Shown piece after piece: positions 28,534 to 34,100 of a stretch of 64,000 bases of DNA; position 1 is the stretch's first letter; each line of letters starts with the position of its first letter. The stretch is from positions 1 to 64,000 of the IMG/VR virus record IMGVR_UViG_3300000553_000012. One strand, 5' to 3'. Below the pieces are notes generated by a model. That model was given only the letters and a program-made list of their open reading frames with translations, had not been told where the DNA came from and searched no databases. This stretch comes from a virus. A program made the position numbers and the translations under genes.

Positions 28534-30120
28534 ATGGCAAAATTAGAAAATGTCTCAAAAAAAATAAAAAATACTGACTATAGCCCATTAGAAATACAGA
28601 TTTTAAGAAGTAAAGGTATTACCACAAAAGGTTGGTGGTTTTCAAAAAACAATAAAATGATAAAAAAAGATGAAATAGACAATACTATCAATACAAGTGG
28701 AATTCTTGTTGTAATAGATAAATTAGATTTAATTAATAAAAAAATTAATAAAACACGAAAAAATTTGTTTAAAGCCATGGATGCAAATGAAGAATCTATG
28801 GACTATGCTATACGAATATTTAATCTTAATAAACCTGAAAGTTCTCCAAAACCTGTTCCTAACAAACAAAAAAGAAAAAAGAAAAAATCTGATAATTTAG
28901 GTAATTTTTTACTTTTTGCTGGAATAGAATTATCAGTATTAATCCGTGGCGCTATAGGATGGGCAACTACTGGTATACAAAAAATATTTGACACATTAAA
29001 ATCAGGATTTAGTAAGGTAATAGCTATACTATATGATGGCTTGTCCAGTTTTATGAACTTTATAGGACAAAAAGATGCTGCAAAAGAGTTTAGTGATAAA
29101 GCTAAAGCACTTAGATTACCGCCCGCGCCTTCTATACCCAAAACTAAAAAGAATGAAGTGGGTGCACCGTCTACTGGAGGTTCTGAAGTTTCTCCACAGA
29201 AAGAAGTAACACCAGAGCTTCAATCTACAAATGCTCAACTTGCAACTAACAAACCAAATGATATAATTTCATCAAGTCCAAGTCCGAGTATACAGTCTAC
29301 TACCGGTGGAAGTGGAACTGGTGGTTCAGTCTCTCCAGCACCGCCTACTACCGGTGGAGGTGGAACTGGTGGTTCAGTCTCTCCAGCACCGCCTACTACC
29401 GGTGGAAGTGGAACTGGTGGTTCAGTCTCTCCAGCACCGCCTACTACCGGTGGAGGTGGGCCACCCGCTACTGGGGATAAAATACAAACAAATACGGGGA
29501 AAAAACCAAATAATGTAACTTTAGGCCCAAAAGCAGATATATCAAAAGTAGAACCCGAATTACTATCTAGATTTTATGCAGCCGCAGTAGAATATGGCAA
29601 ACCATTAAAAATTGAAACAGGATATCGAGGAGACGAATATCAAGCAGAACTTTGGGTAAGAGCTAATATATTTCATGAACCGAGAATTTTTAGTCCAGCA
29701 TCACCAAAAAACGATACTACAATTATATATAAAGGAAAAACTTTTACCGTCAAAGGTGGTGGTAAAGGAAGCGCCCATGCTTTAGGGCAAGCAATAGATG
29801 TGAGTCCGACTGCTCCACAAGGACAACAATCACCACTGGATCCATTTTTAAAGAAACATGGGCTGTGGAGACCTTTTATTAATGGCGTAGGCAGAACTAA
29901 AGCAGACGCTCCACACATTCAATATGCTGGTAAAATGGGAGCAGATATACAAGAAGGACAAAGATTTATGAATAATAAATCTTCCACTACTTCTGCGCCA
30001 AAAACAAATCCACCGACTTCTACTAATTCTAAAAATAATATAAATAATAATGGATATTCATTAGAACAGCATTTTGGCGTAAATGAACCGACATACACTT
30101 CACATAATCAAGGAACTTAA
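28534..30120 (+). CDS. Tail protein with M15 peptidase domain
   Basis: A 528-residue companion of the preceding gene. Residues ~10-60 (YSPLEIQILRSKGITTKGWW, FSKNNKMIKKDEI) parallel that gene's N-terminal module, then a short hydrophobic helix (FLLFAGIELSVLIRGAIGW). A Gly/Ser/Pro linker with three 48-bp repeats leads to a C-terminal M15/VanY-type zinc peptidase (~335-490). Its SxHxxGxAxD motif is SAHALGQAID (~411-420) and the late ligand His is in APHIQY. It would cut peptide cross-links as the lysozyme partner cuts glycan. One base separates the genes. Confidence 0.8.
   Translation: MAKLENVSKKIKNTDYSPLEIQILRSKGITTKGWWFSKNNKMIKKDEIDNTINTSGILVVIDKLDLINKKINKTRKNLFKAMDANEESMDYAIRIFNLNKPESSPKPVPNKQKRKKKKSDNLGNFLLFAGIELSVLIRGAIGWATTGIQKIFDTLKSGFSKVIAILYDGLSSFMNFIGQKDAAKEFSDKAKALRLPPAPSIPKTKKNEVGAPSTGGSEVSPQKEVTPELQSTNAQLATNKPNDIISSSPSPSIQSTTGGSGTGGSVSPAPPTTGGGGTGGSVSPAPPTTGGSGTGGSVSPAPPTTGGGGPPATGDKIQTNTGKKPNNVTLGPKADISKVEPELLSRFYAAAVEYGKPLKIETGYRGDEYQAELWVRANIFHEPRIFSPASPKNDTTIIYKGKTFTVKGGGKGSAHALGQAIDVSPTAPQGQQSPLDPFLKKHGLWRPFINGVGRTKADAPHIQYAGKMGADIQEGQRFMNNKSSTTSAPKTNPPTSTNSKNNINNNGYSLEQHFGVNEPTYTSHNQGT
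29299..29460 (+). repeat. Three 48-bp tandem repeats plus partial copy
   Basis: In-frame units at 29299-29346, 29347-29394 and 29395-29442 and an 18-bp partial copy encode TTGG(S/G)GTGGSVSPAPP. Units are identical except at an AGT/GGT codon. They form the flexible linker before the M15 domain and could change length by slippage. Confidence 0.9.
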
Positions 30121-30121
30121 A

Positions 30122-30373
30122 ATGAGTACAACAGATGTAACTCCTGCCGCGCCACCAAATTGGATAGCTAAAGTATTACAAGATGTTGATGGAAATCCAT
30201 CTTCAAAACGAGTTATTGTATTAGGATCAATGGTATTTCTTTCAATATATGGTATTGCTAACATTTTTTATAATGTTAAAGTCGATCCCATGGTTATAGA
30301 TGCCTTAAAATATACAATTATTACCGGCATTGGCGCTATTGGTGCAGAAAAATTTACCAATAGACCAAAATAA
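30122..30373 (+). CDS. Small two-helix membrane protein, holin candidate
   Basis: An 83-residue protein, with ATG at 30122 one base after the previous stop; a longer frame from 30083 would lie inside the M15 gene. The N-terminal ~25 residues are soluble, followed by two hydrophobic helices (RVIVLGSMVFLSIYGIANIF and ALKYTIITGIGAIGAEKF) separated by a short KVDP turn. Size and topology fit a class II holin, but no catalytic neighbours are adjacent and the endolysin and spanins lie elsewhere. It ends the plus-strand tail island. Confidence 0.5.
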   Translation: MSTTDVTPAAPPNWIAKVLQDVDGNPSSKRVIVLGSMVFLSIYGIANIFYNVKVDPMVIDALKYTIITGIGAIGAEKFTNRPK

Positions 30374-30377
30374 AAAA

Positions 30378-30398
30378 AGAGGGAGAGAATCTCCCTCT
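30378..30398 (-). terminator. Rho-independent terminator
   Basis: A perfect 9-bp stem (AGAGGGAGA/TCTCCCTCT) with a 3-base loop. Read on the minus strand it is followed by seven T, ending transcription from gp32 and the structured RNA. It may also stop plus-strand transcription from the tail island, but the T run is poor that way. Confidence 0.85.
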
Positions 30399-30407
30399 TG
30401 TATCTCA

Positions 30408-30524
30408 ACGAAATGGTCGGGCTTATTTTGAGACGTTCGCCCGTATTTCGTCTGGTCCCGGTCGCTATCCGATCTCGCCTATAGCTACTCGTGGTATTTT
30501 AAGTCTCCACGACCGACGTCTCAA
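30408..30524. ncRNA. Predicted pseudoknotted structured RNA
   Basis: A 117-base gap between the convergent holin-like gene and gp32 is dense with complementary segments. Helix 1: 30408-30414 with 30445-30451. Helix 2: 30418-30422 with 30439-30443. Helix 3: 30428-30436, inside the helix-2 loop, with 30516-30524 (9 bp), giving a pseudoknot. Helix 4: 30459-30464 with 30510-30515, stacked next to helix 3. Two small hairpins lie inside (30464-30468/30481-30485 and 30490-30494/30507-30511, which share end bases with helix 4). The minus-strand terminator follows at once, so minus-strand transcription as a gp32 3' UTR or separate RNA is favoured. No known class recognised. Confidence 0.55.
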
Positions 30525-31439
30525 TTATTCCGAAGCGAGCTTGCGAAAATATGCCATGTCATCGTCATCATCTTCAGTTTGCCAAGGAACGTCATCTTCC
30601 TCGACAACGGGAGACTTAGACCGAGATTCTCGCAATGGAATGGCCTCTGCGCGAGGAAGATCATCTTCATCTCGTCTATTGGCTGACTCTAGTCCTAATA
30701 CCGCATAAAGCTTCTTCTTTAGAGTATCATAATCCTTAAAATTCTTGACATCAAGAAACTCTTGAAGAGGATATTCAGACTTCCAAATCTTTTCTAGTTC
30801 ATCATCATCCTTTAATAAAGGACTCCTAGAATCAAATACGGACTTATCATAGTTTCGATAACCTTCAACATTTCGAATCTTAATCTTAAAGTTTGCGCCT
30901 TCCCAAAGATCAAATGGGTTTAAAGGATTTTCATCGGCAAATTGAGGATTCATTGCTTCATTAATCTTATCAAAAATCTTCTTACCATACTTAAAGATTT
31001 TTACCTTTCCTTCATTTTGAGGATTGGCTGGATCACTAATAACATAGATATTAGAAAAATAACTTAGCTTTCGCTTTTGATCTCTAGCCTGCTTACGCGC
31101 GGGAGAGTTATCATCTGTCGTAGAATTCCAAAGTTGTGAATTATATTCACTACAAGGATCTGGCTGATTAAGAGTTGTAAGTGAATTTTCAATATACCAA
31201 AGCCCTGTAGGACCCTTGAATCCATGATTCCATACTCGAACAAATGGCATATCTTCATTTGGAGGAGGCGGAAGGAATCTAATTACAGCATAACCATTTC
31301 CCGTCTTATCTACATCGGGATACCACATTCTTTCGTCTGTTGATGCTGGGGACTCATTGCTAGTGATCTTTTTAATTTGATCAGCAAGCTTATTTAGTTC
31401 ATTTGTACGATTGCGCTTTAATGTTGCAAAATCTACCAT
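30525..31439 (-). CDS. gp32: Single-stranded DNA-binding protein gp32
   Basis: A 304-residue homologue of T4 gp32 (301 aa). It has the basic N-terminal LAST-like segment (FATLKRNRTNELNKLADQIK), an OB-fold core (YAVIRFLPPPPNEDMPFVRV, LWYIENSLTTLN, YFSNIYVISDPANPQNEGKV) and an acidic C-terminal tail (VEEDDVPWQTEDDDDDMAYF) for partner binding. The core zinc-binding region retains only one cysteine (PDPCSEYN) where T4 has three Cys and one His, so zinc coordination seems lost. Codon use is less AT-biased than in neighbours, consistent with high expression. Followed by gp59 and gp33 in T4 order. Confidence 0.95.
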   Translation of the reverse strand: MVDFATLKRNRTNELNKLADQIKKITSNESPASTDERMWYPDVDKTGNGYAVIRFLPPPPNEDMPFVRVWNHGFKGPTGLWYIENSLTTLNQPDPCSEYNSQLWNSTTDDNSPARKQARDQKRKLSYFSNIYVISDPANPQNEGKVKIFKYGKKIFDKINEAMNPQFADENPLNPFDLWEGANFKIKIRNVEGYRNYDKSVFDSRSPLLKDDDELEKIWKSEYPLQEFLDVKNFKDYDTLKKKLYAVLGLESANRRDEDDLPRAEAIPLRESRSKSPVVEEDDVPWQTEDDDDDMAYFRKLASE

Positions 31440-31491
31440 GTATTTTCTCCATATATTTGTGTGTATTGTCCTGTATAAGCGGACATATTAT

Positions 31492-32088
31492 TTATGCATT
31501 CTCATAGGATGCTTCAAAATGCTTTAAAGCAATTTTACGCATTTTAGAAATATCATAATCTAGAAATGAACGATACTTTTTAAAGATAATAAAAATATCT
31601 TTCCACAATGGATCGTCCTTCAATTTTTTATTCCATAGATCAAAATAATTTAAAAGATCATCTAATATAATGATGGTCTCTATTGATATCTTTTTTCTTA
31701 GAAATAACTTTAGCAGATGTGGATGCTGATTATTTTTAATATTAACATTATCGGAAATATTTGTCAATAGATTATTAAGGTCTTCTTGAAAATAATAACT
31801 AAGAGCTTGTCTTCTTTTATTCCATTCTATATATACTTTTTCGGTAGTAGAATTATTAATTAAATCACCTATCCAAATATTTGTTCCATTCTCTACAAAA
31901 TTAGCAATAAGAAAATCTTTTGGATTTTTATGTTTGGCTAATTTAGCAAAGAAAAACTTATCTTTACGAATCTCAAAGGCTTCTACATTAAGTTTCATTT
32001 TACCTTGATATTTTATGAAGTCATATTGTTCACGAGAAAAGTGTGCTTTGAGAGCAGAATATAATACATATGCTTCAAATGGAGTCAA
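31492..32088 (-). CDS. gp59: Helicase loader gp59
   Basis: A 198-residue protein matching T4 gp59 (217 aa), which loads the replicative helicase onto gp32-coated forked DNA. The N-terminus MTPFEAYVLYSALKAHFSRE, YDFIKYQGKMK is diagnostic. The rest is helical with a basic surface (LLKLFLRKKISIETIIILDD, KLKDDPLWKDIFIIFKKYRS). It overlaps gp33 by 4 nt and lies upstream of gp32 in the transcript. The helicase gp41 is outside the window. Confidence 0.9.
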   Translation of the reverse strand: MTPFEAYVLYSALKAHFSREQYDFIKYQGKMKLNVEAFEIRKDKFFFAKLAKHKNPKDFLIANFVENGTNIWIGDLINNSTTEKVYIEWNKRRQALSYYFQEDLNNLLTNISDNVNIKNNQHPHLLKLFLRKKISIETIIILDDLLNYFDLWNKKLKDDPLWKDIFIIFKKYRSFLDYDISKMRKIALKHFEASYENA

Positions 32089-33259: not shown

Positions 33260-33556
33260 AAATTGGGTCCGTTCTGGTGCTAGGTGGAACCCATACCCCG
33301 GAAAACTTACGCGGCTAAGCGGGTCTCCATAATACCATTATCGTTGGCATTTACACGTTTCTTGCGGTTAAGGTCGCTCGCTCACCTATTCTCCACGCTT
33401 CTACTCATCGGCAATCGATACTAGTCGCCCCCGTCATGACTACACATAGCTGATAACTTTTGTACCCTCAGCCGCTGGCGCTTTATATGTAGTCATGGTG
33501 GAGGCGGGGAGATTTGCACTCCCGTGTTACCAAACTTTTGTTACGCTTCAACGAAT
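33260..33556 (-). ncRNA. ssrA: Circularly permuted two-piece tmRNA
   Basis: On the minus strand an acceptor piece comes first. Its T stem GGGAG/CTCCC (33523-33519/33511-33507) has a TGCAAAT loop. The 3' acceptor strand CGCCTCC (33506-33500), discriminator A and encoded CCA end at 33496. A linker closed by a 9-bp stem (33488-33496 with 33436-33444) leads to the coding piece, whose 5' strand GGGGGCG (33432-33426) pairs fully with CGCCTCC. The third pair is G-U, the alanine identity element. The tag frame 33348-33307 reads ANDNGIMETRLAA then TAA. Pseudoknot-like repeats follow. The outer ends given are estimates. Confidence 0.9.
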
Positions 33557-33561
33557 ATTTT

Positions 33562-33569
33562 TATTTATA
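33562..33569 (-). promoter_or_regulatory. T4-type late promoter box before the tmRNA
   Basis: An exact TATAAATA on the minus strand, starting at the base after the preceding gene's stop codon. A start about six bases downstream (~33556) would place the tmRNA acceptor piece at the very 5' end of the transcript. This suggests the tmRNA is made late, by phage-modified polymerase. Confidence 0.6.
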
Positions 33570-34100
33570 TTATTTTCTTTCGAAATGATAGATATTATAG
33601 TGATTAACTCTGTTTGAAAATTTATTTTTTTTCGAAATCGTTTCTGTTTTATGATTCCATCCTTTATCTCTCATAGATTTTTGAAAGTGCTTGTTGTCCA
33701 TAAGCCTATCATACATAGTTCCCAATCTTGGATCTGCTCCGGTAAAATGTATTTTATTAATACCATGTTTATCAACAAGATGATGTATAACATGCATCGA
33801 TTTACCAAATGCACCTATAGGCCCACCATGAGGCTGTCTTTTATCACTATATGACGATATATCGGTTGATGGGTCTTGGCTTGTTCCCATACCAACCTCT
33901 CCATCATTTGAGAGATAAACACAATGGTGTAAACCTTTATGCTTAAAGAAGGTATGATGAACACCCAATTCGGTCTTTGTTTCACCATTATCCATTTCAG
34001 CATTTGTGCCAAACTTTGTAGGAGTGTCAACGATTGATTCAGATAAACACCACTGATCAAAAGATAACAATATATTTTTATCTAAAAAAATGCTACTCAT
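33570..34100 (-). CDS. Hypothetical protein, GNAT-like C-terminal pattern
   Basis: A 176-residue soluble protein. The first half (MSSIFLDKNILLSFDQWCLS, VHHTFFKHKGLHHCVYLSND, GEVGMGTSQDPS) is beta-rich. The second half has FGKSMHVIHHLVDKHGINKI, HFTGADPRLGTMYDRLMDNK, which resembles the end of GNAT-type or other alpha/beta enzymes (I.F.A..P....LYDRL). Eight or more histidines are present. It lies between two non-coding structured regions. Assignment as an acetyltransferase-like protein is tentative. Confidence 0.55.
   Translation of the reverse strand: MSSIFLDKNILLSFDQWCLSESIVDTPTKFGTNAEMDNGETKTELGVHHTFFKHKGLHHCVYLSNDGEVGMGTSQDPSTDISSYSDKRQPHGGPIGAFGKSMHVIHHLVDKHGINKIHFTGADPRLGTMYDRLMDNKHFQKSMRDKGWNHKTETISKKNKFSNRVNHYNIYHFERK

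Follow-up and report, generated by a model that had tools for sequence, protein, structure and literature searches.

The gp32 protein of phage T4 represses its own translation from the 5′ leader of its message, where UUAAA/UAAA repeats and the ribosome-binding site come after a pseudoknot of about 28 nt (PMC535899). In its passages on gene 32, the review PMC3014915 describes the gene 32 transcripts as the most stable of the T4 mRNAs, all of them processed by RNase E, and places near the stop codon a conserved RNase E site that affects chemical decay and that ribosomes have been proposed to mask; it also calls for work on how gp32 is controlled across the diversity of T4-related phages. For autoregulation at the RNA level and for unusual stability the T4 gp32 mRNA is a classical example, and in the open-licence PMC literature we found no report of a pseudoknot in a gp32 3′ UTR. 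The RNA described here resembles the gene 32 leader pseudoknots of T4, T2 and RB69, with which it shares the gene whose mRNA is knotted and, broadly, the phage group, but it lies 3′ of the gp32 stop codon whereas the T4 pseudoknot lies 5′ of the start. It is also 118 nt long, with a three-way junction and a terminator at its end, and unlike the T4 operator it is not trailed by UUAAA/UAAA repeats and a ribosome-binding site. With bacterial 3′-UTR-derived small RNAs, which act in trans, it shares a stable fold and the use of the mRNA’s intrinsic terminator, but it differs from them in its pseudoknotted tertiary fold and in being known here from sequence alone. Like the type III antitoxin RNAs (ToxI and its kin) and phage pseudo-ToxI it is a pseudoknotted, phage-encoded RNA; it differs in lacking tandem repeats of a pseudoknot unit, in having as neighbours gp32 and an 83-aa ORF that no PHROG matches, and in being unlike ToxI, whose unit is about 36 nt, in size and topology.

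The window that we analysed comprises the first 64,000 of the 96,389 bases of virus record IMGVR_UViG_3300000553_000012. Searches with blastn and tblastn assigned the phage to the T4-like viruses; its neighbours there are marine cyanophages and phages that infect Pelagibacter and Methylophilales, and no close cultured relative was found. In the ORF list gp32, a single-stranded-DNA-binding protein of 304 aa (PHROG 224, E 7.4e-111), occupies 30525–31439 on the minus strand; a gp59-like helicase loader and a late-promoter regulator lie upstream on the same strand. The 5′ leader of gp32 (31440–31491, minus) holds a simple hairpin, TGTCC-GCTTATACA-GGACA, which is also present, with one loop change, in L002, the locus of a relative whose gp32 is 81% identical. 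At the other end of the gene the RNA follows the stop codon with zero bases between, and the gp32 transcript runs into an intrinsic terminator (30399–30377, minus) formed by a 10-bp stem and then TTTTTATTTT; no plus-strand terminator-like site was listed within 30000–31600. The first-pass annotation had called the convergent neighbour holin-like, but this 83-aa plus-strand ORF (30122–30373 in the ORF list) has no PHROG match; a related counterpart stands at the same place beside the L002 gp32. The annotation had given a gap of 117 bases; the structured part measures 118 nt, and the full distance between the gp32 stop codon and the point where the convergent ORF ends is 151 nt (30374–30524).

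The fold (minus strand, 30524–30407) consists of a three-way-junction domain and a 13-bp hairpin, the loop of which pairs over 9 bp with the extreme 5′ end. This pairing, helix A (30524–30516/30436–30428), is perfect and corresponds to inverted repeat I2. Its 5′ strand, TTGAGACGT (30516–30524), begins on the first base past the gp32 stop codon, and its 3′ strand, ACGTCTCAA (30428–30436), makes the pseudoknot from inside the loop of hairpin C/D, where it takes up 9 of the 16 bases. Domain B (30459–30515) is closed by helix B (CGGTC/GACCG, 30515–30511/30463–30459) and carries hairpins B1 (GTGG/CCAC, 30510–30507/30494–30491) and B2 (GCTAT/ATAGC, 30485–30481/30468–30464), both with loops of 12 nt. 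A linker of 6 nt, GGACCA (30453–30458 in the segment table), leads to hairpin C/D (30407–30452; inverted repeat I3), built from the 8 bp of helix C (30452–30445/30414–30407; seven Watson–Crick pairs and one G·U) and the 5 bp of helix D (30443–30439/30422–30418), with an internal loop A/ACC between them and a 16-nt terminal loop. Read by eye, GAGATAC and then the terminator follow on the 3′ side. The topology is thus that of an H-type pseudoknot whose first loop is itself a folded domain, and when helix A was masked, domain B and hairpin C/D kept their predicted folds. All helices named in the first-pass annotation, including the 9-bp pairing of a hairpin loop with a distant segment, are present in the sequence, as is the strong minus-strand terminator beside them. 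The RNA is 50.8% G+C, whereas the window has 33.8% and gp32 37.8%; some 2.5% of 118-nt windows reach this G+C content. Several further ideas about the locus were rejected. Stop-codon readthrough into the fold would meet a frame that shuts after 19 codons (by eye); an insertion with target-site duplication, suggested by TTGAGA at both ends, showed no terminal inverted repeats by eye and no second copy; and a switch in which the helix A partner pairs with the 3′ tail TTGAGA had a pairing probability of 0.0 with the helix A 5′ strand removed.

The fold is real and unusual. Its best pseudoknotted energy, computed as the nested part plus the crossing stem with no pseudoknot penalty and with controls scored identically, was −46.9 kcal/mol, whereas the shuffles averaged −32.8 (sd 5.9), and only 1 of 500 dinucleotide shuffles did as well; in a rerun with a laxer search that allowed shorter helices, none of 300 did. 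Nested-only folding was ordinary (49/500 shuffles as good; z −2.27 when the terminator was included), and the signal therefore resides in the pseudoknot. When 118-nt windows were taken along both strands of the 64 kb, 33 of 3,196 matched the raw pseudoknotted energy, most of the 15 matches listed lying in G+C-rich stretches near 1–900 and 29.3 kb. The gain of pseudoknotted over nested folding (−14.9) was the largest of the 3,196, the next best being −13.1, a comparison that slightly favours the target because it was placed exactly on the feature and the other windows at 40-nt steps. The energies of the two strands were near-equal (plus −45.9, minus −46.2), so that energy cannot tell the strand and the strand call rests on co-transcription with gp32 and on the terminator. 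Together with the stop-to-terminator position, the fold supports the earlier proposal of a structured RNA at the 3′ end of the gp32 transcript, of which it is very likely part.

The RNA is known from a single lineage. We compared the gp32 loci of the best 80 of 308 confirmed IMG/VR relatives, and the sole other copy found was on one identical contig (the gp32-locus twin L001, also the pattern-search match L081), which matches the window over 11,401 bases and, being identical, offers no compensatory changes by which covariation of the helices could be judged. Model R1, which was built from this single sequence and so has limited reach, matched none of the other 79 of these best 80 loci, 0 of 24 other records and 0 of 13 further gp32 loci, and 0 of 50 records in a search where an empty answer carries no weight. 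No match was found by blastn of 30401–30530 against phages and plasmids. Two exact or gapped DNA patterns returned only L081 from IMG/VR, and three others returned L081 plus 1, 9 and 7 contigs, none with a model match better than E 0.2; the Bacteroidales contig L100, which matched the gapped pattern when genome_contigs was searched, had neither an R1 match nor an Rfam family at gathering score and was treated as chance. In Rfam 15 no family reached its gathering score for the RNA, only tmRNA being matched in the window, and the best local match on either strand was STnc180 (24.5 bits against a gathering score of 50).

Among the best 80 loci, 75 were usable, with at least 100 nt past the gp32 stop codon (L008, L017 and L059 were too short, and L016 and L072 had no stop), although many are near-duplicates and the 75 are therefore not independent cases. 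A terminator was found in 68 of them and none in 7, and 64 of the 68 lay within 58 nt of the stop codon, which suggests that most relatives manage without such a domain. The L002 locus, for example, has a short, plain, A+T-rich spacer before its terminator. The four distant terminators belong to L001 (125 nt), L018 (147 nt), L076 (85 nt) and L077 (83 nt); the stretch in L018 resembles coding sequence of the convergent gene. As separate observations, L020 and L030, whose gp32 is 57% identical to that of the window, have GAATAGCAGGCGAGCG in common between stop codon and terminator, and in Methylophilales phage Melnitz-3 (MZ577098.1; L103 4889–4974) about 90 nt of unannotated folded sequence run from the gp32 stop codon to the terminator. 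This Melnitz 3′ UTR folds with z −3.77, terminator included, but has no significant pseudoknot (84/300 shuffles as good), and blastn in the phage collection matched nothing beyond the four Melnitz isolates.

L076 and L077 hold a different structured stretch between gp32 stop codon and terminator. When 16 bases of this stretch were searched against IMG/VR, 16 contigs matched. In five of these the match sits between a gp32 stop codon, which it closely follows, and a terminator-like hairpin; in the remaining 11 it looks like coding sequence or chance. The five sequences (minus strand: L121 4676–4732, L122 5279–5335, L130 3228–3284, L120 2717–2778 and L129 2348–2408), L121 being the record of L076 and L122 that of L077, form three sequence clusters, and tblastn confirmed gp32 in all five contigs, 50–54% identical to that of the window. 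GTCGCAGAGTAAGCCTCGGAC is common to all five, in part because of how they were searched for; the identity of the 16-base core is wholly due to this, the core having been the search key. Their hairpin S1 has differing stems (TAGGC/GCCTA, AGGT/ACCT or AAGGTC/GGCCTT), and its loop pairs downstream through GTCTGA/TCAGAC, TCTGA/TCAGA or ACCAAC/GTTGGT, crossing a conserved GUCGCAGAGUAAGCCUCGGAC hairpin. Between clusters, five of the six pairs of the crossing helix are changed on both sides, all to standard pairs except one G·A in L130; the helices were hand-picked in three clusters, so this count leans towards structure, and MAFFT did not align the S1 and S2 helices. Trained on three of the sequences, model R2 recovered the other two (L120, E 0.0008; L129, core alone, E 0.001) and had no match in the window. 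Shuffled singly, only L076 beat its controls (3/300 as good; L130 71/300, L120 156/300, L129 87/300), and in L130 and L129 the crude folding method preferred another knot. No Rfam family reached gathering level at these gp32 loci. Readthrough was rejected in L130 as well, where by eye the extra frame soon ends and is not the one that holds the conserved core.

The second family shares with the window RNA the slot between stop codon and terminator and a pseudoknot that joins a loop to a distant strand, but it pairs a 5′ hairpin loop downstream across GUCGCAGAGUAAGCCUCGGAC, whereas the window RNA pairs its 5′ end with a 3′ hairpin loop. Homology between the two was not supported, the similarity of their GTCTCAAAATAAGCC and GTCGCAGAGTAAGCC cores being within chance (102/2,000 shuffles as good). 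A pseudoknotted RNA between gp32 stop codon and terminator is therefore not unique to the window, and structured gp32 3′ ends recur; this recurrence is the wider finding and the one that deserves follow-up, as these unrelated-looking pseudoknots are short, concrete RNAs that can be tested for protection, processing and gp32 binding. Separately, the gp32 5′ leaders of L076 and L130 have GTGGATACGAAATCTGATACAACG in common upstream of the start codon; pairing of the TCTGA within it to TCAGA of the 3′ UTR is conceivable, though a five-base match of this kind is well within chance.

By computation the locus has the helices, the exceptional pseudoknot, the G+C island and the stop-to-terminator position, and the explanation that we favour, with somewhat less than even confidence, is a folded, pseudoknotted domain at the 3′ end of the gp32 mRNA, closed by the terminator and acting in cis on the fate of that mRNA. 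Among the three roles suggested in the first-pass annotation, protection of the gp32 mRNA is the most likely. Such a domain would block 3′–5′ exonucleases and access of endonucleases near the gp32 stop codon, and by slowing or gating decay it might keep this replication message long-lived or set the timing of its decay. Helix A starts on the first base past the stop codon, so a ribosome that is finishing gp32 would hold it open; domain B and hairpin C/D, which keep their folds with helix A open, could form meanwhile, so that helix A would close last, once translation slackens and the terminating ribosome has left. By analogy with T4, a fold that spans stop codon to terminator appears well placed to control the end of the message at which RNase E and decay act. 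In favour of the cis-acting domain are the pseudoknot beyond chance, the G+C island, the position, the second family in the same slot and the stability of the T4 message. Against it, the terminator hairpin alone would already protect the 3′ end, no diverged homologue was found, most relatives are without the domain, and the plus-strand energy is near-equal. A bolder proposal, which we advance as an improbable speculation, is that T4-like aquatic phages repeatedly fit their gp32 mRNA with interchangeable pseudoknots, at the stop codon or just past it, that serve as translation gauges: the terminating ribosome would keep the first strand single, and upon repression of gp32 translation the knot would close and switch the message between protection and decay. 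If true, such gauges would be the 3′-end counterpart of the classical T4 5′ operator.

The main rival of this cis-acting domain is a separate stable RNA that acts in trans on RNAs or proteins of host or phage, released by cleavage from the 3′ part of the gp32 mRNA or transcribed from a promoter of its own. We regard such a free-standing small RNA as possible though doubtful. A compact, stable fold that ends in a Rho-independent terminator would suit it, as would presence in one lineage, which is what an accessory gene might show. A promoter-like TTGAGA-17-TAAAAT does occur at 30524–30496, but it lies inside the fold, and promoter-like sites are no commoner here than in shuffles (3 found against 6.0 expected). 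No homologue was found at an independent genomic placement.

That the RNA is a product of chance or a by-product, an inserted G+C-rich piece with a fortuitous fold, is unlikely. Its presence in a single lineage, the absence of diverged copies in which covariation could show and its having been picked by a reader from the whole window would all fit this reading, as would the 33 windows with a raw energy at least as good, but the scarcity of equally good shuffles (1/500 and 0/300), the largest pseudoknot gain in the window and the exact fit from stop codon to terminator argue against it. A second gp32 operator, in which gp32 would bind the 3′ pseudoknot and repress or stabilise its own message, is quite improbable. 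The gp32 messages of T4, T2 and RB69 do carry a pseudoknot that is the gp32 operator (PMC535899, PMC3014915), but the T4 site lies 5′ of the start and seeds the spread of gp32 across A+U-rich sequence and the ribosome-binding site, from which repression follows (PMC3014915). The window fold is 3′ of the gene and runs into a terminator, so repression by T4-style spreading could not work here in the same way. The gp32-binding role that had been suggested is further disfavoured by the other gp32 loci examined, where the fold was not found; these include L002, whose short spacer indicates that conserved gp32 binding needs no such fold. Least probable by our reckoning, and far-fetched, is a decoy against host defence such as a mimic of a pseudoknotted type III toxin–antitoxin antitoxin RNA: phage phiTE escapes ToxIN through an expressed pseudo-ToxI RNA (PMC5449768) and one-lineage presence would suit an arms-race gene, but 30370–30530 contains one 9-nt direct pair and no tandem repeats, PHROG matching of the neighbours recognised no toxin gene beside the RNA, and the RNA is far larger than a ToxI unit.

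Other features were seen in this record and its relatives. In Pelagibacter phage Mosig, a manA RNA motif (RF01745, 64 bits; L110 64–271) lies near gp32, upstream of a putative rubrerythrin gene. In the window, a G+C-rich stretch within a 528-aa plus-strand gene holds 48-base repeats (29297–29459) with GGSGTGGSVSPAPPTT-like units, and positions 1–1152 form another such stretch, the rest of the phage being 34% G+C, with two ORFs of 216 and 180 aa that by eye start with signal-peptide-like segments. Five tRNA genes (Met, Ile, Gly, Thr and Arg) lie outside the window in the same virus record (L101 9040–13346). A phage-encoded permuted tmRNA (33262–33623, minus; RF04321 85.8 bits, RF01849 59.1 bits), missed by ARAGORN, has by eye the tag reading frame ANDNGIMETRLAA. 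It stands upstream of the late regulator, the helicase loader and gp32, the same order as in Methylophilales phage Melnitz, whose tmRNA has already been published (PMC9004378).
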